64,000 nt of DNA from Methanobacteriota archaeon (GCA_020348345.1 CP070748.1:1360247-1424246), one strand, 5' to 3'; counted from the first letter of the stretch, positions 33,423 to 46,092 are shown. Numbers and translations: made by a program. The notes: a model not told the origin generated them from the letters alone.

Positions 33423-34058
33423 TCATTTGCGTGCATTCTTGATGAGCGTCCTTGAGAGGACGCCACCGACGACTGTGACATCCTCCGTGGACAGTATCCG
33501 GGCGGCACTGGCGTCGAAGAGGATATTGGCCGATGCGGAAACCTCGATGTCCCCCAGCCAGAGTACGACCGATACAGGCAGCTTCTCGAAGAACGCGAAC
33601 CTGAATCCAACGGATCCGACGCTCAACGGCTCTCCGCCCATGGCCGTCGCGACGCGACGAAGGAGCTCTGGCTTATAACCGAACTCTCTCACCAGGGGAG
33701 TGATAGCCCTAGCCTTGAAGGCTGGGTAGTACATCGCGCCACCCTCGAACTCCCTGAACGATATCAATCGCTCCGTAAGCTGGGATCTCCCAACACCAGC
33801 GAGGTAGTGCAGCACCAGCACCTGCAGATACCGCGAGACGTCTGCACCGTCGGGACGGTCGTACTTCACGGTCTTCGCCCTGACATCGGCCACGATGGGA
33901 TCGCCGAGGAGGCTGAGACGCACGACACCGTCGGCGCCATCTCCACCTGTTGATAGGTCCTTAGCGAGTGTTGCGAAATCGAGGGCGGACACTGTCCCCC
34001 AGGCGCGCTCGAGTGCGTCCTGGTGAGAATCTCTATCGCTCCGCGGCTTGACGATCAT
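33423..34058 (-). CDS. DUF3786-domain protein coupled to AcsE
   Basis: 211 residues matching DUF3786: LARDLS-like opening (LAKDLST), VRLSLLGDPIVADV, VLVLHYLAGVG, FREFEGGAMYYPAFKARA and VVLWLGDIEVSASANILFDASA. Its start overlaps the acsE stop by four bases (ATGA). The family is of unknown function but is known to me from CODH/ACS and other corrinoid gene neighbourhoods in anaerobes. Coupling to acsE suggests a role in methyl transfer or maturation of the methyltransferase or corrinoid protein. Confidence 0.8.
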   Translation of the reverse strand: MIVKPRSDRDSHQDALERAWGTVSALDFATLAKDLSTGGDGADGVVRLSLLGDPIVADVRAKTVKYDRPDGADVSRYLQVLVLHYLAGVGRSQLTERLISFREFEGGAMYYPAFKARAITPLVREFGYKPELLRRVATAMGGEPLSVGSVGFRFAFFEKLPVSVVLWLGDIEVSASANILFDASAARILSTEDVTVVGGVLSRTLIKNARK

Positions 34059-34831
34059 GCTCTCAGGAATGAGGGTGCGTATAGCTTCCTGTTCATGAGC
34101 ACTTCGGCAGCCTTAACCGCGTTCATAAGATCGACGTCGTTGGGATCGACTATAGCGGCATCCAGACCCCGCCCCAGCAGCATCGCGAGATAGGTTCTGT
34201 TCAGCAGCGGGCGCTCCTCTGCGCCGCTGGAGACGTTGCTGAGGCCGACGATGGTCTTCGGAGCGGGTGTGTTCAGCATACGAAACGCCGTTATGGCATC
34301 GCATACGCCCAGAAGTTGGTTCTGAGCGGCTGCGATCGGAAGCACAACCGGGTCGAGGTATACCTTCTCTGGTGATATGCCCTGATCCATAGCGGTCGCG
34401 AGCAACAGCATAGCCAGCTCTGTCCTCCCGTCAGTGGAATTCGGTATTCCCTTCTCGTCGATTGTTAGGCACACTATCTCCGCGTTGTGCTCAGCAGCTA
34501 GCGGGAAGAACTTCTCCATCCTCTTCGCTTCGGCCGTCGTTGAGTTTATCATCGGTTCCTTGTTGCAGGCCGCTAGGCCTGCGTTCTGCACCTTCAGACC
34601 GGGCGAGTCTATGCACAGCCTGGCATCGACGGCATCCTGGACCGTCTTCACGAGCCATGTGGCGGCCTCCGGAGCGTCGTCCCTCCCGGGTCCGGTGTTG
34701 ATGTCCAGCAAATGCGCGCCCCCCGACACCTGTTCGAGCGCGAGATCCTGGATGTACTTCGAGTCGCGAGCGTCTATCGCCTTTGCCACCTGAGGAAACT
34801 GACCGTTAATCCTCTCTCCTACTACGATCAA
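34055..34831 (-). CDS. acsE: Methyltetrahydrofolate:corrinoid/iron-sulfur protein methyltransferase
   Basis: 258 residues, close to the 262 of Moorella AcsE, and aligning along the whole length: VVGERINGQF, DINTGPG, CIDSP, MINSTTAE, YLDPVVLP and GLSNVSSG. These hold the pterin-binding Asp and Asn residues of the TIM barrel (near Asp75, Asn96, Asp160 and Asn199 of the bacterial enzyme). It moves the methyl group of methyl-tetrahydrofolate onto the cobalt of AcsC. This is the bacterial enzyme; methanogens use tetrahydromethanopterin and a membrane Mtr or Cdh system. The start is TTG. It is divergent from the RACo-type gene, with 114 bases between. Confidence 0.92.
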   Translation of the reverse strand: MIVVGERINGQFPQVAKAIDARDSKYIQDLALEQVSGGAHLLDINTGPGRDDAPEAATWLVKTVQDAVDARLCIDSPGLKVQNAGLAACNKEPMINSTTAEAKRMEKFFPLAAEHNAEIVCLTIDEKGIPNSTDGRTELAMLLLATAMDQGISPEKVYLDPVVLPIAAAQNQLLGVCDAITAFRMLNTPAPKTIVGLSNVSSGAEERPLLNRTYLAMLLGRGLDAAIVDPNDVDLMNAVKAAEVLMNRKLYAPSFLRA

Positions 34832-34913: not shown

Positions 34914-34945
34914 CATGCGTGCAGTTCGTACCTGGCTGGTCTTGG

Positions 34946-36853
34946 ATGACTGCAAAGAGCGGAGACTCCTGCGAAGTCGCGTTCTCGCCCGACGGCGTCA
35001 CTGTGACAGTGTCGAAAGGCGCGACGATTCTGGAAGCGTGTCGAGAAGCTGGAATAGCCATCGATGCCGTTTGTGGCGGTGAAGGCAAGTGCGGTCGATG
35101 CAGGGTCAGACCTGATGGCGAATTCATTGCGAACCGTGGCGACGTCCTATGTGAAGAGGATGCTGAGGCCGGCGTCGTACTGGCGTGCAAGGCTACGGTC
35201 CAGGGCGATCTCAAGGTGGAGATACTACCCAAGTCCAGGATCAGAGAACATCAGATACTCACTAGGTCCGCCGAAAGAGCAGTACCCACCCTGACCCCTT
35301 GGCTCTGCAAGACCCTCGTCGAGATGCCGGAGGCTAATGTCTACGACAACACCGCCGACCTAGAGCGGCTATTGAGAACTCTGGGCGACAGACATCTGAT
35401 CATGCCCGTAGAGACCTTGCGCAGGCTGCCGCATATCATCAGGGAGGGCGATTGGACGGTTACTGCCACCATCTCAAGCCTTGAGCATCCGCCGGAGATA
35501 ACGCGCCTGGAAAGCGGCGATCGCCGCACCCGAATGCTGGGCCTGGCTGTCGACGTCGGTACGACGACAATCGTAGGCCAGCTGGTCGACCTGCTCAGCG
35601 GGGAGGTCGTTGCGACCTCGTCGGAGTACAACAGACAAGTCTCGAAGGGGGAGGACGTCATCGCCCGTATGATGTACAGCGAGGAGATGGGCGTGGAAGA
35701 ACTGACGACACTCGCCAGAGATACGGTCAACTCCGTCATATCCAGCCTTCTGAGGACTTCCTCAGAGAGATTCGGCGACGAGATCACAACGATGGATGTT
35801 GTCGGGGCCTCCGTCTCCGGCAACACCATCATGACGCACTTCTTCGTCGGCCTCGACACCTCTCACATACGTCTCGAACCGTATGTCCCAGTGGCTCATC
35901 ATATGCCACCGAGAAGTGGGCACGACCTCGGCATGAACATCCATCCTTCCAGCCGGGTGCTGCTGTTCCCGTCCAGGGCGGGATACCTCGGTGGCGACGT
36001 CGTGGCGGATGTCCTGGCCAGCGGCATGCACACATCCGAGAACCTCACGCTGCTCATTGACGTGGGAACGAACGGCGAGATCGTTCTCGGATGCAGCGAG
36101 TGGCTCGTGTCATGCGCGTGCTCCGCGGGCCCCGCGTTCGAAGGGGGCGAGGTCTCATGCGGCATGCGGGCGATGCATGGCGCGATCGACAGCATCCGAA
36201 TCAACGACGATCTTGGCACGTCATATCACGTCCTCGGCGATGAGAAGCCGAATGGCATCTGCGGTTCAGGGCTCATAGACCTTATCGCTGAGATGTATTC
36301 GAACGCGATAATAGATCGGAAGGCGAGGATACAGGAGCTGGCAATTGAGCGCATCAGACAGGGCGAGGAAGGGATGGAGTATGTCGTCGAATGGAATAAG
36401 CGGCTTGGAGACGGCTCCGTCGGGGATCTCGTGATAACGGATGCCGATCTCCAGAACGTGCTCAGAACGAAGGCGGCCATATACGGCGCCGCAACGGTTC
36501 TTCTGAAGAAGATGGAGGAGGACCTCGATGACATATCGGAGGTGGTCATCGCTGGAGGCTTCGGCAACCATCTCGATATCGACAGAGCCATATCCATCGG
36601 CATGTTCCCTGACATCCCAAGGGACAGATACAGATTCATCGGCAACGGATCCCTCGGAGGAGCACGTCTAGCACTTCTGTCCAAGGACATGAGGCGAGAG
36701 ATGGTGGAGATATTCGAGGAGATGACGTACATAGAGCTGAGCGTTGACAGCGATTTCTACGACGAGTTCTCGTCCTCGCTGTTCCTGCCACATACGGACA
36801 TAGCCAAGTTTCCAAGCCTGTCAGTCACCGAATCGAGAGGGGGTGACCATTAA
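34946..36853 (+). CDS. acsV: RACo-type reductive activator of the corrinoid iron-sulfur protein
   Basis: 635 residues. An N-terminal plant-type [2Fe-2S] ferredoxin domain has Cys43, Cys49, Cys52 and Cys81 (AVCGGEGKCGRCRV then LACKA). A linker leads to an ASKHA-type ATPase (DUF4445) with AVDVGTTTIVGQLVD, a TLLIDVGTNGEIVLG core and VVIAGGFGNHLDID near the end. RACo proteins use ATP to drive an electron from the ferredoxin cluster to cobalt(II), rescuing corrinoid that has been oxidised. The location between acsE and acsC fits exactly. Its stop codon overlaps the proposed ACG start of the following CooC gene, so the pair is coupled. Confidence 0.9.
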   Translation: MTAKSGDSCEVAFSPDGVTVTVSKGATILEACREAGIAIDAVCGGEGKCGRCRVRPDGEFIANRGDVLCEEDAEAGVVLACKATVQGDLKVEILPKSRIREHQILTRSAERAVPTLTPWLCKTLVEMPEANVYDNTADLERLLRTLGDRHLIMPVETLRRLPHIIREGDWTVTATISSLEHPPEITRLESGDRRTRMLGLAVDVGTTTIVGQLVDLLSGEVVATSSEYNRQVSKGEDVIARMMYSEEMGVEELTTLARDTVNSVISSLLRTSSERFGDEITTMDVVGASVSGNTIMTHFFVGLDTSHIRLEPYVPVAHHMPPRSGHDLGMNIHPSSRVLLFPSRAGYLGGDVVADVLASGMHTSENLTLLIDVGTNGEIVLGCSEWLVSCACSAGPAFEGGEVSCGMRAMHGAIDSIRINDDLGTSYHVLGDEKPNGICGSGLIDLIAEMYSNAIIDRKARIQELAIERIRQGEEGMEYVVEWNKRLGDGSVGDLVITDADLQNVLRTKAAIYGAATVLLKKMEEDLDDISEVVIAGGFGNHLDIDRAISIGMFPDIPRDRYRFIGNGSLGGARLALLSKDMRREMVEIFEEMTYIELSVDSDFYDEFSSSLFLPHTDIAKFPSLSVTESRGGDH

Positions 36854-37617
36854 CGACCTTCACCGCCGCAGTCGCGGGCAAGGGTGGCGTCGGCAAGACC
36901 ACATTCGCCGCACTGGCGATAAGACACTTGCACGAGACATCGACGGAGATCGTCCTTGCGGTGGACGCCGATCCGAACGCGAATCTGCACGCGAAGCTCG
37001 GAATCCCTGGGGGCAGGACAATAGGAGATCTCAGGGAGGAACTCGTGGCCAATGTGGACAACCTCCCCGCCGCGATATCGAAGCAGGAGCACATCGAGTA
37101 CAGCATACGCCTCGCCCTTGCAGAGGGCGACGGCTTTGACATCCTGACCATGGGAAGGCAGGAGGGAGCCGGATGCTACTGCTACATCAACAATATCCTC
37201 CGAACCTTCATAGACTCGCTATCAGAGAAGTACTCATATGTCGTAATGGACAACGAAGCTGGAATGGAACACCTGAGCAGAAGAACGACAAGATCGACCG
37301 ATACGCTGTTCGTAATGGCCGATATGTCGAAGGCTGCGACGGAGGCTGCGAAGAGGATCGCCTCTCTCGCGCGAGAGATGGACCTGTCGATCAAGAGAAC
37401 GGTTCTGGTTCAGAACCTGATGCCTCCGGGCGAGAAGCCCTTGCCTGTCCAGAACATCGACGGATTCGACGCGGTCTACGGCGTCAGACGCTCTGCTGCA
37501 ATCCAGGAGGGCAGCAGGACGTCGGAGTCTGTGATGGGGATCCCATCCGCAGATCCCGCGTTCTCCGACATCGCAGATGCCGTCGGCGCCGAACGGAGAT
37601 CTGCGCCGACGAGGTAG
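36853..37617 (+). CDS. cooC: CooC-type nickel-insertion ATPase with no canonical start codon
   Basis: 254 residues if translation begins at ACG 36853. The P-loop AGKGGVGKTT (8-17) is intact, followed by DADPNANLH and the metal-binding Cys-x-Cys (Cys108, Cys110 in GCYCYINN). No ATG, GTG or TTG lies in frame between the upstream TGA (36844) and the P-loop. The first in-frame TTG, at 36928, would remove the P-loop. The ACG overlaps the preceding gene's TAA as TAACG, exactly where a TAATG overlap would be expected, and GAGGGGGTGA sits about eight bases before it. CooC dimers load nickel into the CODH C-cluster or ACS A-cluster. Second gene of the RACo unit; it converges with acsC. Confidence 0.83.
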   Translation, partial: TTFTAAVAGKGGVGKTTFAALAIRHLHETSTEIVLAVDADPNANLHAKLGIPGGRTIGDLREELVANVDNLPAAISKQEHIEYSIRLALAEGDGFDILTMGRQEGAGCYCYINNILRTFIDSLSEKYSYVVMDNEAGMEHLSRRTTRSTDTLFVMADMSKAATEAAKRIASLAREMDLSIKRTVLVQNLMPPGEKPLPVQNIDGFDAVYGVRRSAAIQEGSRTSESVMGIPSADPAFSDIADAVGAERRSAPTR

Positions 37618-37643: not shown

Positions 37644-38969
37644 TCACGAAGAGAGGGTCTTCATCATCTTTGGCAATCCAGAGGACTCCCTCGGGCCGAC
37701 AGTGACCTTCATATCCGTGAGCTCGGCCAGCTTCCCGCTCATCCTGCTGACCATGCCCGGTATGATTATCTCGTTTCTCGAGCTCTTCTCCTTCACCTGG
37801 AAGTCGTCGATGGACTTCGCCACAGACTCGGGCGTGAGCTTCCCAGCGGCGAACGCGGTCATCACCGACTGTCCCTCGGTGTCGACCACCAGCATCCACG
37901 CAGGGATCTTGCTCTTCTCGATGTCCGCCCTCACGGTGAAATACGTGAGCGAGAAGTTGGTTGTGAACATCACGGGCGACTTGTCCGTCGGTTCTCCGAC
38001 AGAGTACAGCCCGGCCTTCACCTGTATCGGCACCTGCGGGTCCGTGAATATGTTCTGTCTGAGAGCAAGCAACGGATACACCATCTCACGTGGCATATCA
38101 TCCATCAGCAAGGCCGAGGAATACTTCATTACGCCCATCGCAGCCTTCATGTGATTCATCATGTCCGGGCCCAGAATTGCTATGGTGGGGAAACCAAGAG
38201 GTCTGAACTTGTTCTTCACCGCAGCCCTTCTGATTGCGGTCATCTTGACTAACATATCCGCCAGGGACTCCGTGCCAGGCTCCAGCACGAGGTCGTTGAG
38301 GCCAGCTTTCTTCGCCTTGTCTGCCAGCTCCGTCAGCTCCTCCAGCGTAGATGCGCCCACGACGAGCGGCAGCGACTTCTCCTTTGCGACCGCCACCATC
38401 GCGTCGAAGTTGGACGCGGTCGCACGATAGAGCAGGGGCTTCCTGTCAGAGCACGCATCAGCCGCCTTCGCAGCGAGGCCTGCATCATCGCACATGATTA
38501 CGACCGGGAGCTCCCTGCCCGCAGCTGTCTTCACAGCCTCCACGAAGTCGTCGACGCTGCCGGTGGAGTGTCTCAGGGCGACAGAATCGACCCTCATGAT
38601 CTGGCCTACGCGTTCGAAGGACATGGCATGAGCCTCCTCTATCTTCGCCTTCATCGCATCGAGTCCGTCGGCATCGTCGGCCACCAATCCCAGCACGGTC
38701 GGATTGTAGAACGTCTTGTCGTGTCGGAACAACTGGGTCTCGTCGCCCATCTTGACCGCGAGATCGCCCGAGCCGAAGGAGACCAACCGAATCGGTGGAG
38801 CACCGCTCTCCTCCAATGCCGCCTTGGCTTCGGGGCTAACATGGGGGCACGCGTCGAGCGCTACCTTTTGGTTGGCCAGCTGCATCGCAAAGGCGAGGCA
38901 GGTCGGAAACTTGCATTCGCCGCAGTTCGTCTTCGGCAGCAACTTGTAGATCTCCATTGCAGTCGGCAC
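37644..38969 (-). CDS. acsC: Corrinoid/iron-sulfur protein large subunit
   Basis: 441 residues. The N-terminal [4Fe-4S] domain has Cys16, Cys19, Cys24 and Cys41, spaced C-x2-C-x4-C-x16-C, as in Moorella AcsC. A TIM barrel and a C-terminal corrinoid domain follow. The start is GTG 38969: it gives VPTAMEIYKLLPKTNCGEC, which lines up with the bacterial N-terminus, and it follows GGGAGGTG by seven bases. The upstream acsD stop is one base away (TGAaGTG), so translation is coupled. AcsC carries the methyl group on cobalt between AcsE and the ACS A-cluster and is the substrate of RACo. Confidence 0.93.
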   Translation of the reverse strand: MPTAMEIYKLLPKTNCGECKFPTCLAFAMQLANQKVALDACPHVSPEAKAALEESGAPPIRLVSFGSGDLAVKMGDETQLFRHDKTFYNPTVLGLVADDADGLDAMKAKIEEAHAMSFERVGQIMRVDSVALRHSTGSVDDFVEAVKTAAGRELPVVIMCDDAGLAAKAADACSDRKPLLYRATASNFDAMVAVAKEKSLPLVVGASTLEELTELADKAKKAGLNDLVLEPGTESLADMLVKMTAIRRAAVKNKFRPLGFPTIAILGPDMMNHMKAAMGVMKYSSALLMDDMPREMVYPLLALRQNIFTDPQVPIQVKAGLYSVGEPTDKSPVMFTTNFSLTYFTVRADIEKSKIPAWMLVVDTEGQSVMTAFAAGKLTPESVAKSIDDFQVKEKSSRNEIIIPGMVSRMSGKLAELTDMKVTVGPRESSGLPKMMKTLSS

Positions 38970-38970
38970 T

Positions 38971-39924
38971 TCAAGCACCTCCCGCAAGGGCTTTGATAGA
39001 ATTCCTGAATGTCGTCACCGATCTCGGATGACGCATGATCACGACATCCGCTCCAGCGACGGCGGCCGCCAGGGCAGTCATCGCCTCCCAATAGACGCCC
39101 CTCAACTCAGGGTCGCCGCGCTCAGGGTTCTCCTCGAGCGCCTCAGGCACGGTCCACGCGCACGAACAGTCGCATATCATCGGCATCTGCAGCACAGGAT
39201 CGCCCGATAACGCGCCCAACCTAAGGCGCTCTATGTTGGAGTACGAGTACTCGAGCCCCATTCCCAGAGGAGCCATCAGAGGATCCATCAGTATGTTCTC
39301 CGGTTTCATGCCGAAATCCAACAGGAGTATGTTCATCTGTTTCGCCAGGTTTATGTCGAGGTTGGAGAATGCGACGATGCCGTGCCCGTTTGCCATCGAT
39401 GCCGCGGCGATCGACTTGTACGCCTTCTCCTCGGCGAGGCCTAGGAACAGTCTTTCGCCTTTCGCGGCATTGGACACCTTTTCCATCACCTTAGCGTCCT
39501 TCTCTTCGAATCCGCATCCGTACACGACCATCGGAATGCCTGTGCTCTGCAGCGTCTTCTGCACTAGCGCTTCCAACTCCTCGGCGGGCCTGTCCTCTTC
39601 CTCGGGGTTGGCGGACTGCAGCTTGAGGACGCAGAGATCAGCGCCCCACTCCCCCTCGCACTTCTTGGCCCATTCAACCGGGTCCTTGACAGCCGCGCCC
39701 ATCGACTCCTGCAGCTGTTCCGGAACCATGCGGACAGTGTCCACGACGTCCATCGCCACGAGCGGTGGGTGTGGCATCTCGCTCTCGAACGGCAAGAACG
39801 GCAATCCGTTCGAGCCACCAGCTATCAGACGGGCGGTCCTCGTGCCGCCCTGGTCCTTCGTCGCACCTATTGCGACCTCCTTTATCCTTCCACTGTACTT
39901 CTCCGTCGGCATCTCAAATCCCAA
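38971..39924 (-). CDS. acsD: Corrinoid/iron-sulfur protein small subunit
   Basis: 317 residues, TIM-barrel small subunit of the CFeSP heterodimer. The match to bacterial AcsD is clear along the length: IGATKDQGGTRT, DLCVLKLQSANPE, VYGCGFEEKDAKV, LDINLAKQMNILL, DPLMAPLGMGLEYSYSNIER and VIMRHPRSV. It helps present the corrinoid of AcsC. TTG 39924 is preferred to ATG 39912 because a GAGGGGG site lies eight bases upstream and the N-terminal length matches the bacterial protein. It starts 21 bases after the CODH-ACS stop. Confidence 0.92.
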   Translation of the reverse strand: MGFEMPTEKYSGRIKEVAIGATKDQGGTRTARLIAGGSNGLPFLPFESEMPHPPLVAMDVVDTVRMVPEQLQESMGAAVKDPVEWAKKCEGEWGADLCVLKLQSANPEEEDRPAEELEALVQKTLQSTGIPMVVYGCGFEEKDAKVMEKVSNAAKGERLFLGLAEEKAYKSIAAASMANGHGIVAFSNLDINLAKQMNILLLDFGMKPENILMDPLMAPLGMGLEYSYSNIERLRLGALSGDPVLQMPMICDCSCAWTVPEALEENPERGDPELRGVYWEAMTALAAAVAGADVVIMRHPRSVTTFRNSIKALAGGA

Positions 39925-39945: not shown

Positions 39946-42900
39946 TCAGTTGATCATCGGCGGCATCTTGGCGGCGGGATGGTCAACCTTGGCCAGCCAT
40001 TCCGCCAACTCCTCCGGTGTGCGGGCTACTGTCTCGTCTGCGATCTTATCGATGAAGTCGGGCTCGCCCACCTCTTCGGCACGCTTCACCAACTCATCCC
40101 TCATGGCCTCCTTGAGGTCCTTGGGCATCCACACAATCCTGAGGAATCCTCCGTCTGCTGTGATGAACTTCCTGCTCGTGAGATACTTGCGACCGACTCC
40201 AATGAACCCGGGCGTCTGGATGCCACCGCCCACTGAGCCCGCAAGCGTCGAGAATGTCATGCCTATCGGGGTCATGCCGGCGTACTCTCTGTTGACGACG
40301 ACTACTCCCTGAAGGTCGGCGGATACAGCGACGATGCATTCGAAACAGCCACACGAGGTCATCGGATCGTCCATCATCGTGTAGGCGCTGAACTTCTGAA
40401 GCTTTCCCATCGTCTTCTCGGTCACGGCCTCGTTCACGCCGACCCACTGCCCCTTGACCTCGTCGATTATATCCTTCTTAGGCACAGGGCTGTTGGGCCC
40501 GGTAGGCGCTATCTGATGCGACGCTTTGGCGTCGAGCCAGTTTATGGCACCGCACAGTCCCAGCCTCTCAGGCGTAACAATACAAACATGGCCCGGGGCG
40601 AAGCTCTGGCACAATGTGCATGTGTAGAAAGTATCGACCTTCTCGTCCGTCAGGTCGGCTATGCGAGCATCCCTGGCGGCGTAGGATGCCGTCGCCTCGT
40701 CCAGGTGCTTCCTCAGCTCTGCCTCGTCTGTAACGATCGTCACCTCCACCTTCGACACAATCGCTCCGAACTCCTCCTTGAGTTTGGTGACCAGTATGTC
40801 TCCGATGTGTTTGAGTCTCAAACCCGCGGCGACTGAGGTTTTGCTCAGGCGAACCCATAGGAGGTTTCTCTGGCCTGTGTGCCACGCGCCCTCGGCGAAG
40901 TTGACGAATTGGTGTATCCGTCGCTCGAGCACCGATTCGAAATCCTCCTGCATATTCTTGCCGTAGACATTGACCAGTATGCCCAGATGTGTCGCCGATC
41001 CCTCGGGCATCTCATCGACGTCCTTGCCTATCAGAGTCACCTGGCCGTCCTTGACCTCCTCCGACTGTCTCATCTTGAGCAGCTCATAGGCGAGTGTCTT
41101 TGACGGGCCGCCGGCCTCGATGTGCATCTCGGGCCTGCGTATCGTCTCCCCCTCGAACGCAGGGCCGTACGGAACCGGGAGATCTATGGCTCCCAGCTTT
41201 ATCCTGCATCCCCTCACTTCGATGGCGGTGGTGATCATCTCGTCGAGGTTCTTCTGAACGACATACTTGTCCGGGATGGGCTCTACATCCTGATCTGTGA
41301 TGGTCGGTGAGCCGTTGAACATCACGGCAAACTCCGCCGCTACTTTGATGTAGTCCAGAGGGCCCATCTGCAGCACGAAGACCTTCGGACGTTTCGACAG
41401 ATAGTTGTATAGCCCTTCGCGATCGCCACTCTGGATACCGCCGAAGGACAACGCCGCCCGAATGGCGAAATTGAGACCGTGTATTGCCTGCGTGAACTCG
41501 CCGACCGGATACAACATCCGGTCGAGGCCCATCGCTATCTTCTGATCCTTCAGCTGCTTGATGATGTCATAAGTGACGATGATCAGCATACCCTTGTTCT
41601 GGCAGTCGCGAATCATAGCGGAGAGCTTCTTGGGGTCGCTGCACTTCCCCACGAACACCGCCGCCCCAGGTATGGTATCGTCGACGAACGCGATGCCCAG
41701 CTGTCGGAGTATCCTGTCCGGCACGAAGCCGCAGTAGAGCGAGCCTTCGTAGGGGGTCGGCGTCTCGATGTACTTCAACGCCTCCACGATCTCCGCGGCG
41801 ATCATCGTTGTCTCACCCGATGCGATCGCTGCCTCGAGTGTGGGCTCCTCGACTATCTTCCCCCTCGCCTCGCCGAGGAGCACGGGCAGGTCGCCGAGTC
41901 GGGTGCAATCGCGGCCCAGCCACGCAAACAGGCTGGGAAGCTGGTATCCGGTCTCAGGAAACTCTATGGTCTGGTCTGGACCGTACTTGCGCAGCGCACG
42001 GTTCAGCAGGAAATCGGCGTATCCAGCGGCGATGATGGATCCTTCGATCGCCATCTTGAAAAGCTGCTCGTTGGAGATCGTGCCCTTGTCGGGCACGCAG
42101 GCTGCGCTCTGCTCGACCTCGGGATCTGTAAGATCGAGTTTCCAGCGACGGTATTCGATCGCGCTGTACAAGCGCTTCGCTGCGATGACTGGATCCTTCT
42201 CGAAGATGAAGTATCCGCCATATACATCTCTCGCGGTGTTTTCCAGCACCTCAGTCACGAGGGTGCTGCCGTAGAGGTAGTTTATGGTGCCTACATGAAC
42301 AGGGAATCCCATCGTGACAGCCCAAGTGCCAATTGAAACCGCCTTTTCGTGCATGGCCTCTGGCGCGGCGGCTACGAACGGAGTCTGATGAATGTCTACG
42401 CCCAGGCGGTTTGCGACCTCAGTTGCGAGATTCGAGTATCTCGGGTTGTCGACGCACGATCCTATATGCCACACACACGGAAGTCCGTCCACCTCCGCTG
42501 CCTCGCTCAGCTCGGAGAGGAACGAGCGCAATCCCTCTCCCGCGATCTCCTCGACCTTCGCAGGATCCATGAAGCCGGCCTTTGCGAGTTCAATCGCGTT
42601 GCATCCTGTGGCGAGGACGAGCACATCGCGCTTGACCAGCTCGCGAACCATGATCAGGACGTCCTCGTCCATCTCTGTCCTGGTGTTCTTGCATCCGGCG
42701 AAGAGCGCCAGCCCTCGAATCCGGCCGCTCATTATGTTGCTGACGAGATACTGGAACGGGTCGTCAGGATTCTTCTTCGAGAACAACTCGCGCATCTGTT
42801 CGACGCTGAAACCCGCAACCACTTTGGAAGGCGTCACACTGGGCAGCCTTTTCATTTCGCCACGCTGCTTGTACGCCTCGAGCGCCAGCAACAGCACCTG

Positions 42901-44082
42901 CTTCGCCGACTCGCGTGCCCTGTCTGGCGTGAATTCTATGTGGGTGTCGCCAACGAGCCTTGCGGCCGCCTCGGTGCTGATCATCCTTGTGTGCGAGCAC
43001 TTCGCCAGGGTTGCCAGCGAAGGCATGAAGCATTGGTAATCGAGTATCATCGCGTCCAAGAGGCCGCTGAGCAGTACCAGCTCCTGGGCTGCGACGTTAG
43101 ACGCCAGTGGCACGCCCTTGCGCATCAGTATCTCGTTGCCGGTGCAGCACACGCCAACGATGTTGAATCCTTCCGCGCCCTCCTTCTTCGCATCATCCTT
43201 CATCTCCCGGGCCACATCCACGAGGATGTCGCTCAGGAGCGGGTTATGGCCATGAACGGCGACGTTGATGCTCCTCTCGTCCAGCACGCCTATATTCGCC
43301 TCGCTGAGGACGATCTTCGGAGTGCCAAAGAGCACGTCGCTCAGGTCGGAGGATATCTGTGCGCCCGTGTAATCCGCGAGCGAGCATCGGACGCCGGCAA
43401 AGAGCAACGGTATGGGATCGGCGTCGACGCCCATGGATGTTCTGTGCATGACGTCGCTGATGACAGATTCGATGTTCCACGGGAGCACGCCGTGAGTGTC
43501 CCAGAGATGCATCCGCTTCTTCGTGACTGACGCCTTTAGGAATGATAGCGGCTCATGGGAATAGCGTGAGTAGTCCTCAAGAGCCGCCAAAGCGACCTTG
43601 TTGACCAATGTGTCCGGGTCGACTCCGTCGGCCGATATCCCCAGTTTTCGCGCGATGGATTCCAGCTTCGAGGGGTCGGTCACAGAGTAGTTGTCGGTCT
43701 TCTTTTCGGAAACCAACAGGAGCACCTCGGCGATCTCCTTGCCGTGGTACGAGTGCGAGGCCGTGCCACCGACGATCATCCTGTCGATGTTCCTGGCTAC
43801 GATCGTGTAGTCGCGAGCGCCGCATATGCCTGTCGTGGGCTCCTTGCCCATTGGGTTGATCCTGCACGGACCTTGAAGACATATCTTGCAGCAGAGGCCG
43901 AGCTTGCCGAAACGGCACTGTGCTCCCTGGTTGTCGACCCTTTCGTAAAGCGTGCATGCGTCGGAACCGCGAAGGCCTGTGAACATCTCGGAACAGCTCT
44001 GGTCCCACAATCCGGCCACGAGGTCCTTCTTCTCCGACTTGGCGGCCCCTTTGGGTCGCTCGTTTTCGGTCTTGTCCGTCAC
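39946..44082 (-). CDS. CO dehydrogenase-acetyl-CoA synthase fusion protein (CooS/AcsA + AcsB)
   Basis: 1378 residues in one uninterrupted frame. Residues 1 to about 645 are a bacterial-type CODH. D/B-cluster cysteines are 56, 64, 65, 68, 73 and 87. C-cluster ligands are His278, a Cys of the CCTGNE motif (312/313), Cys351, Cys464, Cys494 and Cys543, with catalytic Lys580 in MHEKAV. After about 25 linking residues, AcsB begins at LFKMAIEGS (about 674) and runs to the end. A-cluster cysteines are 1155, 1158, 1167 and 1177, plus the CGC pair 1244/1246, with exactly the spacing of Moorella ACS. It should make CO from CO2 and join it with methyl and CoA. The start is GTG 44082, after GGAGTGAT; TTG 44112 is possible. 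First gene before acsD and acsC. All known relatives I recall are separate subunits. Confidence 0.95.
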   Translation of the reverse strand: MTDKTENERPKGAAKSEKKDLVAGLWDQSCSEMFTGLRGSDACTLYERVDNQGAQCRFGKLGLCCKICLQGPCRINPMGKEPTTGICGARDYTIVARNIDRMIVGGTASHSYHGKEIAEVLLLVSEKKTDNYSVTDPSKLESIARKLGISADGVDPDTLVNKVALAALEDYSRYSHEPLSFLKASVTKKRMHLWDTHGVLPWNIESVISDVMHRTSMGVDADPIPLLFAGVRCSLADYTGAQISSDLSDVLFGTPKIVLSEANIGVLDERSINVAVHGHNPLLSDILVDVAREMKDDAKKEGAEGFNIVGVCCTGNEILMRKGVPLASNVAAQELVLLSGLLDAMILDYQCFMPSLATLAKCSHTRMISTEAAARLVGDTHIEFTPDRARESAKQVLLLALEAYKQRGEMKRLPSVTPSKVVAGFSVEQMRELFSKKNPDDPFQYLVSNIMSGRIRGLALFAGCKNTRTEMDEDVLIMVRELVKRDVLVLATGCNAIELAKAGFMDPAKVEEIAGEGLRSFLSELSEAAEVDGLPCVWHIGSCVDNPRYSNLATEVANRLGVDIHQTPFVAAAPEAMHEKAVSIGTWAVTMGFPVHVGTINYLYGSTLVTEVLENTARDVYGGYFIFEKDPVIAAKRLYSAIEYRRWKLDLTDPEVEQSAACVPDKGTISNEQLFKMAIEGSIIAAGYADFLLNRALRKYGPDQTIEFPETGYQLPSLFAWLGRDCTRLGDLPVLLGEARGKIVEEPTLEAAIASGETTMIAAEIVEALKYIETPTPYEGSLYCGFVPDRILRQLGIAFVDDTIPGAAVFVGKCSDPKKLSAMIRDCQNKGMLIIVTYDIIKQLKDQKIAMGLDRMLYPVGEFTQAIHGLNFAIRAALSFGGIQSGDREGLYNYLSKRPKVFVLQMGPLDYIKVAAEFAVMFNGSPTITDQDVEPIPDKYVVQKNLDEMITTAIEVRGCRIKLGAIDLPVPYGPAFEGETIRRPEMHIEAGGPSKTLAYELLKMRQSEEVKDGQVTLIGKDVDEMPEGSATHLGILVNVYGKNMQEDFESVLERRIHQFVNFAEGAWHTGQRNLLWVRLSKTSVAAGLRLKHIGDILVTKLKEEFGAIVSKVEVTIVTDEAELRKHLDEATASYAARDARIADLTDEKVDTFYTCTLCQSFAPGHVCIVTPERLGLCGAINWLDAKASHQIAPTGPNSPVPKKDIIDEVKGQWVGVNEAVTEKTMGKLQKFSAYTMMDDPMTSCGCFECIVAVSADLQGVVVVNREYAGMTPIGMTFSTLAGSVGGGIQTPGFIGVGRKYLTSRKFITADGGFLRIVWMPKDLKEAMRDELVKRAEEVGEPDFIDKIADETVARTPEELAEWLAKVDHPAAKMPPMIN

Positions 44083-44446
44083 GCGATCATCACTCCAGCG
44101 CAGCCGTGTCAAGCTGAATTTCGTGTTCGTGCGCGAATTCTCAGCTAACCTTCGCCACCCATGTGACGGGCATCGTTGGCATCCTTCGAACAGTGTTCAG
44201 CGATGCGATGGCGGGGGTGAGACAGATGCGCGAGTACGCTCCGTGAGCAAAGGTTGCACTCCTGCATCTGGCTTCAAACTCCCAATCGGCAAACACTAGC
44301 AGTCCTCACTGAACGAGTGCCTGGCTCAGGCCAACTCTGACAACGGCGCTCGGCATTCGACGAATACATATGTTGCTACTAATACGTTTTCGTCTCACCG
44401 ACTTCGACCTATGCCGATGGCCACAACGCGCCCGTGAGCGACGGTG
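44083..44446. other. 364-base gap between the CooC gene and the CODH-ACS gene
   Basis: No gene is supported here on either strand. On the minus strand, CGAAAACGTATTAG (around 44380-44395) is the best promoter-like string, but it is weak and far from GTG 44082. The length suggests that the fusion gene has its own control region rather than simple read-through from cooC. Confidence 0.4.
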
Positions 44447-45250
44447 TTATTCCAGCAGACTTCGGATATCTTCCGAAAGCCGCTTGACGGATCGCATCCA
44501 ATCCTCGTTCCCGTCGATCTCGAAGACCGATTTGCCCAGCATGTCCGCACGCGCCACCGCCTCAGAGTATGGGAGAGAAGAGAACAGGGAGAGAGTATGT
44601 CGAGAGAGCATCGAGCGAATCAGATCCTCCTCTTCGGAGTTCCTGACACCGTTGGCCAAGATGGCGAAACGTCGCACCCCCATTTCCTTGGCCAACGCTG
44701 CAATGCGCTGACCGGTGTCGACAGCGCGCGCTCCTGGCTCGACCACGATCAACAACAAATCCACACCCCTGCACGTCGACCTGCCGAACTGTTCCAGTCC
44801 CGCCTCCATGTCCACCAGCACAGCCTCATCCCTTTCGAGGATAACGTGGTCGATAAGTCCCCTGAGGACTGCGTTCTCGGGACAGAAACAGCCGGTCCCT
44901 GCCGACCGTATCGTCCCCAGCACCATCAGCCTGACTCCGTCCGCACCGACCGCTGAATAGCCTTCGGGGATGTCGTCCACCCTCGGGTTGAGCTTGTAGA
45001 AGGGTCCAGTCTCCGCACCGGGACGCGCCCCTGTGCGCTCCTCGATCAGGTCGAGCTCCGCCGATATGGGTTTTGGAACGCGATCTGCAGGAACCTCCAG
45101 AATGGAATGCAGATGCGATGCGGGATCCGCGTCCACCGCGAGCACTTTGACGCCGTCCCTCGCCCAGATGCGGGCGATCGAGCCTACGACGGTGGTCTTG
45201 CCGACCCCGCCCTTGCCAGCCACCGCTATCTTGAATCCCAAAGCGCTCAC
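44447..45250 (-). CDS. cooC: CooC/AcsF-type nickel-insertion ATPase
   Basis: 267 residues. The P-loop AGKGGVGKTT is at 11-20, DADPASHLH follows, and the metal-binding Cys-x-Cys is Cys121/Cys123 in GTGCFCPENAVLRG. This is the CooC family, which inserts nickel into CODH or ACS with ATP. GTG 45250 directly abuts the cooT stop (TGAGTG), preceded by CGGAGGAAC. With the copy at 36853 the locus has two CooC proteins, perhaps one for each half of the fusion enzyme. Confidence 0.92.
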   Translation of the reverse strand: MSALGFKIAVAGKGGVGKTTVVGSIARIWARDGVKVLAVDADPASHLHSILEVPADRVPKPISAELDLIEERTGARPGAETGPFYKLNPRVDDIPEGYSAVGADGVRLMVLGTIRSAGTGCFCPENAVLRGLIDHVILERDEAVLVDMEAGLEQFGRSTCRGVDLLLIVVEPGARAVDTGQRIAALAKEMGVRRFAILANGVRNSEEEDLIRSMLSRHTLSLFSSLPYSEAVARADMLGKSVFEIDGNEDWMRSVKRLSEDIRSLLE

Positions 45251-45486: not shown

Positions 45487-45891
45487 CTAGTCGACCGAGT
45501 ACTCGGCTATCTGACCGATCACTCGCTTCGCTCCCTCGTAGTCGTCAACGCCGAAGACGAACCGAAGCCTGTCGTCCTCCTGGCCGCTGAGGTAGCTGGT
45601 TTCGAGGCAGACGCCGGCAGCGACGAGCGCACGAGCGGCCTTCATCCATTGTCCCGGCTTGTTATACATCTCGACAACCAGAACCTTCCTCTCGGCGAAC
45701 GGCAGGTCCGCCTTAATGAAGGTCCGTCGACACTCCTCCTCGCATCCAGTGAGGAACTTGATCACATACCTGTCATCCACCTTGGCGGTCGCGATCGTGT
45801 CAAGGTTCACTTGGTGGTCGGCTAGCAGGTTGAAGGCGATCAGCAGATCCTCGCTTGATCCGTTGACGGACAGCTCGAATTCAGTCGTCAT
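45487..45891 (-). CDS. ACT-domain protein in the CODH/ACS locus
   Basis: 134 residues with two ACT-like halves: FELSVNGSSEDLLIAFNLLADHQ with a following RYVIKFLTG strand, then KVLVVEMYNKPGQWMKAARALVAAG with RLRFVFGVDD. ATG 45891 has GGGGAGTT upstream; the frame is open further up, but the coding signal ends there. ACT pairs bind amino acids or other small ligands and regulate enzymes. It is the first gene of the ACT-cooT-cooC group, 38 bases before cooT, and may sense a metabolite for the acetyl-CoA pathway. Confidence 0.8.
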   Translation of the reverse strand: MTTEFELSVNGSSEDLLIAFNLLADHQVNLDTIATAKVDDRYVIKFLTGCEEECRRTFIKADLPFAERKVLVVEMYNKPGQWMKAARALVAAGVCLETSYLSGQEDDRLRFVFGVDDYEGAKRVIGQIAEYSVD

Positions 45892-46092
45892 TGAGAACTC
45901 CCCCTGATAGTGGTGCGACTGTAATACGATTCTATCTATTTTACTGTGTACCCATCCATATGATAAGCAGGGCGGTAGCGGATTCCAAATCTCATACGCA
46001 CGCGTCGCCTCGTTCAAATAGACGAGAACCCGACCACAACTCAGATTACGAGCTGCTACAATGACCTCACTTGACAGGACGAGGGATCACCG

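Follow-up and report, generated by a model that had tools for sequence, protein, structure and literature searches.

Carbon monoxide dehydrogenase and acetyl-CoA synthase are encoded as one covalent chain in Thermoplasmatota archaea

The window, a 64,000-nucleotide stretch of an archaeal genome (GCA_020348345.1, CP070748.1:1360247-1424246), carries on its minus strand a frame (39946..44112) of 1388 codons without an internal stop. This acsA-acsB fusion gene, starting with TTG at 44112 or GTG at 44082, encodes a 1388-residue protein in which a bacterial-type nickel carbon monoxide dehydrogenase (Ni-CODH) is joined to an acetyl-CoA synthase (ACS). The same strand encodes the corrinoid protein subunit CdhD/AcsD (38971..39924; NF003376, 356 bits, cut-off 280), the corrinoid Fe-S protein subunit CdhE/AcsC (37644..38987; NF003195, 542 bits, cut-off 306), and an AcsE-like, pterin-binding methyltransferase (34055..34831; PF00809, 70.5 bits). 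It also encodes a conserved neighbour with CbiA/NifH-type P-loop matches (44447..45250), named by inference a CooC-like nickel-insertion ATPase, and an ACT-like small protein (45487..46017) that is a conserved upstream neighbour in the window's family. On the plus strand lie a second ATPase, termed CooC/AcsF-like by inference (36928..37617; weak AAA_31 match, conserved position), and an AcsV/RACo-type corrinoid reactivation protein (34919..36853) with three RACo Pfam domains and an NF040756 match of 605 bits, below the cut-off of 800. A syntenic DUF3786 protein (33423..34058, minus strand; PF12654, 140 bits) adjoins the AcsE-like methyltransferase in the window's family and may be an as yet unnamed accessory protein of this pathway. 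The core order ACS, CdhD, CdhE, CooC2 is common to most of the fused, unfused, and decayed relatives examined, and the fusion gene sits in a conserved Wood-Ljungdahl operon. The window's genome is a single contig of 1.70 Mb (87% complete). McrA was not found in it, and because of this absence at the given completeness, the archaeon is probably not a methanogen.

Both halves of the protein matched their profiles nearly over the full length. The CODH domain (residues 37-660, 42133..44004, minus strand) scored 659 bits against TIGR01702, the anaerobic CODH catalytic subunit (cut-off 478). The ACS domain (residues 682-1388, 39949..42069, minus strand) was matched by NF040764 at residues 690-1387 with 951 bits (cut-off 800) and includes the N-terminal domain that contacts CODH (PF18537 at 703-782). 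The Pfam domains follow one another in the order Prismane, CODH_A_N, CdhC, and ACS_CODH_B_C. These matches, both above their cut-offs, bear out the claim of a sequence-only reading of this DNA that a complete CODH and a complete AcsB share one frame without a stop. That reading had also placed the join near 42075-42150 with about 25 linking residues, in agreement with the linker of 24 residues found here (residues 658-681, 42070..42141, minus strand). Since a single frame encodes both, CODH and ACS are synthesised 1:1, so the proposed fixed stoichiometry holds for synthesis. The further proposal that the join replaces the first ~20 residues of AcsB did not stand. Residue 682 onward aligns to 7zkj_B from residue 18, and the unfused ACS proteins of Clostridium autoethanogenum (6ytt_A), Carboxydocella, Sporomusaceae, and the archaeal sisters start 3-10 residues before the point where the linker meets ACS. 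Because many unfused ACS proteins start near the same point, no essential part of AcsB is replaced.

The metal ligands were mapped by alignment to CODH-II and ACS of Carboxydothermus hydrogenoformans. On the minus strand, Cys66 and Cys74 of the D-cluster and Cys75, 78, 83, and 97 of the B-cluster are encoded at 43822..43917, the C-cluster ligands His289 and Cys323, 361, 474, 504, and 553 at 42454..43248, and the A-cluster ligands Cys1165, 1168, 1177, 1187, 1254, and 1256 at 40345..40620. The D-, B-, and C-cluster ligands recognised in the sequence-only reading each align with their CODH-II counterparts, and the A-cluster cysteines have exactly the spacing of Moorella ACS that it described (3, 9, 10, 67, 2). 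The acid-base pair is present as His120/Lys590. The CO-alcove residues reported for Moorella (G145, I146, V149, F229, and F512; PMC11321310) correspond in the alignment to G806, I807, V810, F890, and F1171 of the fusion. In all, the fusion retains 14 of 14 CODH cluster and acid-base residues, 6 of 6 A-cluster cysteines, and 5 of 5 alcove residues, and the CODH and A-cluster ligands are retained in nearly every fused homologue.

We searched for the fusion in other genomes. The same fused frame is present in ~30 independently assembled genomes of uncultured Thermoplasmatota from at least five families (51-91% identity), a total that combines family and class searches with a scan of named genomes covering the best 80 of 288 relatives. 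Within the window's family (f1), the join lies in an open frame in 14 of 19 genomes, the window included, at 77-91% identity; the remaining five are MAGs that are 65-88% complete. Families f16, f20, f30, and f32 of the same class also have the fused frame. Among the best 80 of 288 relatives, it was found, among others, in SG225.bin14, ETNP2_MAG_1, the SPRUCE/bog/fen MAGs, PtaU1.Bin124, OWC_0013, bin41 (CP070732.1), and Methanomassiliicoccales bin396 (CP070739.1), the last two being single-contig records. Linker length is constant by group: 24 residues in f1, 27-29 in f16/bog, and 18-20 in f20/f30/f32. Pairwise dN/dS, with dS near saturation, was 0.06-0.15 for CODH, 0.03-0.07 for ACS, and 0.16-0.33 for the linker where computable. 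Of the whole frame, the linker is under the weakest constraint; in the window's family, ACS evolves more slowly than CODH. These values indicate that the whole fused frame is under purifying selection.

By contrast, no fusion was found in bacteria among ~65 opened loci, nearly all from Bacillota and each with two genes; ~45 came from the named-genome scan (best 80 of 288 relatives) and 20 were opened from 300 Bacillota genomes. "Open frames" of at least 1400 aa in Bacillota were rejected as fusions: the frame lengths of that genome search read through stops, and in the 20 opened loci, the two genes are parted by a stop codon or lie in different frames. In-frame TGA or TAG codons in some separate CODHs were, judging from the match ends, attributed to alignments that run past the normal stop. 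From CODH stop to ACS start, most bacteria examined have 13-79 nt, and in 4 of 5 named loci of unfused archaeal sisters, a 4-nt ATGA is shared by the end of CODH and the beginning of ACS. In many Bacillota (L054-L057, L060, L072, L075, and L168-L182), one stop codon separates acsA from acsB within a common frame, which would make fusion easy in bacteria. By the same token, one assembly or frameshift error could in principle join two genes that are separate in the cell. For the archaeal frame, however, we regard such an error as extremely improbable: the genomes stem from different projects, the linkers have family-specific constant lengths, and selection acts over the whole frame. Chance and artefact are practically excluded because ~30 other genomes share the open join. 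These results confirm that CODH and ACS are encoded as one covalent chain.

The encoded chain might still give rise to an ordinary two-subunit complex, if the precursor were cut after translation or if ACS were also made from an internal start. The weaker constraint on the linker and an in-frame ATG just inside ACS in some members are compatible with this. However, the join lacks a conserved start codon, and 4 of 15 fused genes have neither ATG nor GTG across the 42 codons around it. The linker, moreover, is modelled as ordered. The AlphaFold2 prediction, which covers a monomer of CODH and A1 (residues 37-1000: CODH, linker, and first ACS domain), gave a pLDDT of 86.3 and a pTM of 0.89, with 85-93 pLDDT in the linker; the position of the first ACS domain relative to CODH is therefore confidently predicted. 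The modelled CODH part superimposes on CODH-II with a TM score of 0.97 and an rmsd of 1.4 Å. We consider two separate subunits unlikely, and the covalent fusion proposed from the sequence agrees with the conservation, the intact ligands, the operon context, and this single-body model (pTM 0.89).

Taken together, the product of the gene is very probably a functional single-chain enzyme that acts both as CO dehydrogenase and as acetyl-CoA synthase. By analogy, the fusion most likely works like the Moorella enzyme, with CODH and ACS tethered. Two chains would pair via their CODH halves around the D-cluster. CO2 would be reduced to CO at the C-cluster, and CO would be led through a tunnel inside the protein to the A-cluster of the attached ACS, where it would be joined with a methyl group from CdhDE and with CoA to give acetyl-CoA. 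The retained alcove residues and the confident CODH-A1 packing lend such channelling indirect support. The tether would maintain the CO-delivering contact and 1:1 synthesis, and the outer ACS domains would still be able to open for methyl transfer. Catalysis could proceed in either direction.

In some relatives, the CODH half has degenerated. All CODH ligands are retained in the examined fused proteins except two, both of f20. In one (L037/L152, G199), the acid-base Lys is replaced by Arg and, by inspection, one of the paired Cys by Gly; in the other (L038/L151, G300; one undetermined residue in the L038 sequence), some of the C-cluster ligands are lost together with those of the D- and B-clusters. 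L037 and L038 represent intermediate stages in the decay of the CODH half. In g33 (f20), f33, and f6/g59, ACS carries instead an N-terminal domain of ~250-330 aa without cluster ligands (L020/L138 of G054, L133-L137, and L139-L145). In hhalign comparisons, this domain is related to CODH with 97.5% probability (E 7e-12) for g33 and 96.5% for f33 and f6 together, which identifies it as a CODH relic. The domain possibly serves as a scaffold, and in g33 it is still constrained (dN/dS ~0.2). An AlphaFold2 model of a g33 remnant protein gave a confident relic fold; the ACS part was poor (pTM 0.56), so the packing is uninformative and the relic call uses only sequence-profile homology. ACS stands alone in f29, three f20 genomes, and much of f6, with CdhD and CdhE adjoining where examined, and no CODH relic was detected upstream of these genes. 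ACS with an intact A-cluster and adjoining CdhDE was seen in L021/L149 (G024) and L146-L148; in G024, which is 99% complete, ACS was found and CODH was not at an E value of 0.001. The A-cluster cysteines are retained in all decayed and lone forms, and these forms nest within the fused clade in the ACS tree. This pattern suggests that, on the Methanomassiliicoccales side, the cluster ligands were lost first, leaving a ~300-aa remnant and then a lone ACS at the same locus.

Many genomes with decayed or lone ACS hold a separate CODH of ~40% identity. In four such CODHs (L159-L162), the second D-cluster Cys is Ser and the other tested ligands are retained. A divergent ACS paralogue (L150, G062; 34-36% identity) has 6 of 6 A-cluster cysteines, altered alcove residues, and an AcsV/CooC-like context, with related matches in G076, G108, G267, and G273. 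Two frames, one fused (L053, 7866-11582) and one of a lone ACS (L158), are broken within ACS, probably through draft-assembly errors.

The decay in these relatives raises the question of whether the CODH half in the window is likewise a structural relic beside an ACS that works alone. The ligand loss in G300, the ~300-aa remnants in many relatives, and the faster evolution of CODH in the window's family would fit such a reading. Against it, neither the window nor any member of its family has lost a CODH ligand or a residue of the acid-base pair. When the window's genome was searched with the fusion as query, moreover, the fused gene was the sole match, with no second CODH-like one. A relic here is thus very improbable, and an active CODH half remains the preferred reading.

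We then examined the origin of the fusion. In the ACS tree, the archaeal sequences all group in a single clade separate from the bacteria (support 100), in which the unfused CSMAG_327 is basal, followed by the unfused RS/f19 group and then by the fused forms. In the tree of concatenated CODH and ACS, the unfused RS group instead stands beside the f16/bog fused group (96/93), and an AU test did not reject a single fused clade (p = 0.143). These phylogenies are compatible with two fusions as well as with a single fusion and a later fission. In PMC9287336, cdhDE in Gimiplasmatales and Methanomassiliicoccales are ascribed to a single acquisition, which agrees with the history of the locus in the present genomes; a term search of the paper gave no mention of a fusion. 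The ancestor of the fused enzyme would be a bacterial-type acsA-acsB pair. In the closest unfused archaeal sisters, the two genes mostly have four bases (ATGA) in common; the step from there to fusion would be short, and a brief in-frame change could complete it. We give about even chances to a full scenario in which a bacterial pair entered Thermoplasmatota, overlapped, and fused, and in which the CODH half in Methanomassiliicoccales then became a clusterless structural domain of an ACS that has no attached CODH tunnel and is supplied with CO by a separate CODH or from outside.

CODH/ACS holds a central place in the Wood-Ljungdahl pathway and serves as a model of how a toxic gas is channelled from one active site to another. 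Elsewhere, CODH and ACS are known as separate proteins, which reduce CO2 to CO and then form acetyl-CoA. A natural single-chain CODH/ACS with a fixed 1:1 ratio offers a construct for the study of the CO tunnel and for engineering. The syntenic series of two genes, overlapping genes, fused gene, dead CODH half, remnant, and lone ACS amounts to a natural experiment that asks if ACS depends on an attached CODH, and has a direct bearing on acetyl-CoA formation in Methanomassiliicoccales methanogens and related archaea. No paper naming a CODH-ACS fusion was found in the literature searched, a search incomplete for key sources; the earlier reading's remark that it knew of no described example holds within that scope.

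Among known systems, AcsA/AcsB of Moorella thermoacetica and C. hydrogenoformans (1MJG, 1OAO, 2Z8Y, and 7ZKJ) share with the fusion the domains, the D-, B-, C-, and A-cluster ligands, the alcove, and the operon partners, but consist of two polypeptides, whereas the archaeal fusion is one. None of 55 distinct matching PDB sequences covers both halves. The C. autoethanogenum structure 6YUA is, by its entry title, a complex of CODH with the first ACS domain, and this is the contact that is tethered in the fusion; there, however, the chains are separate and ACS is truncated. The unfused Thermoplasmata sisters (RS_9_17, RS_17_1, RS_14_3, RS_5_45, and CSMAG_327) share the locus and its neighbours but have two genes; among the best 80 of 288 relatives, the RS MAGs are 66-68% identical to the fusion in ACS and 50-53% in CODH. 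Archaeal ACDS (CdhA, CdhB, and CdhC) has the overall reaction in common with the fusion, and the C-terminal part of ACS has a homologue in CdhC. The CdhA model TIGR00314, however, scores only 53.6 bits on the fusion against a cut-off of 781, and upstream of residue 977, where the CdhC-model match starts, the fusion carries the N-terminal domain of bacterial ACS. The fusion is a variant of the bacterial-type enzyme and not an ordinary member, because its CODH and ACS share a single frame rather than forming separate subunits.
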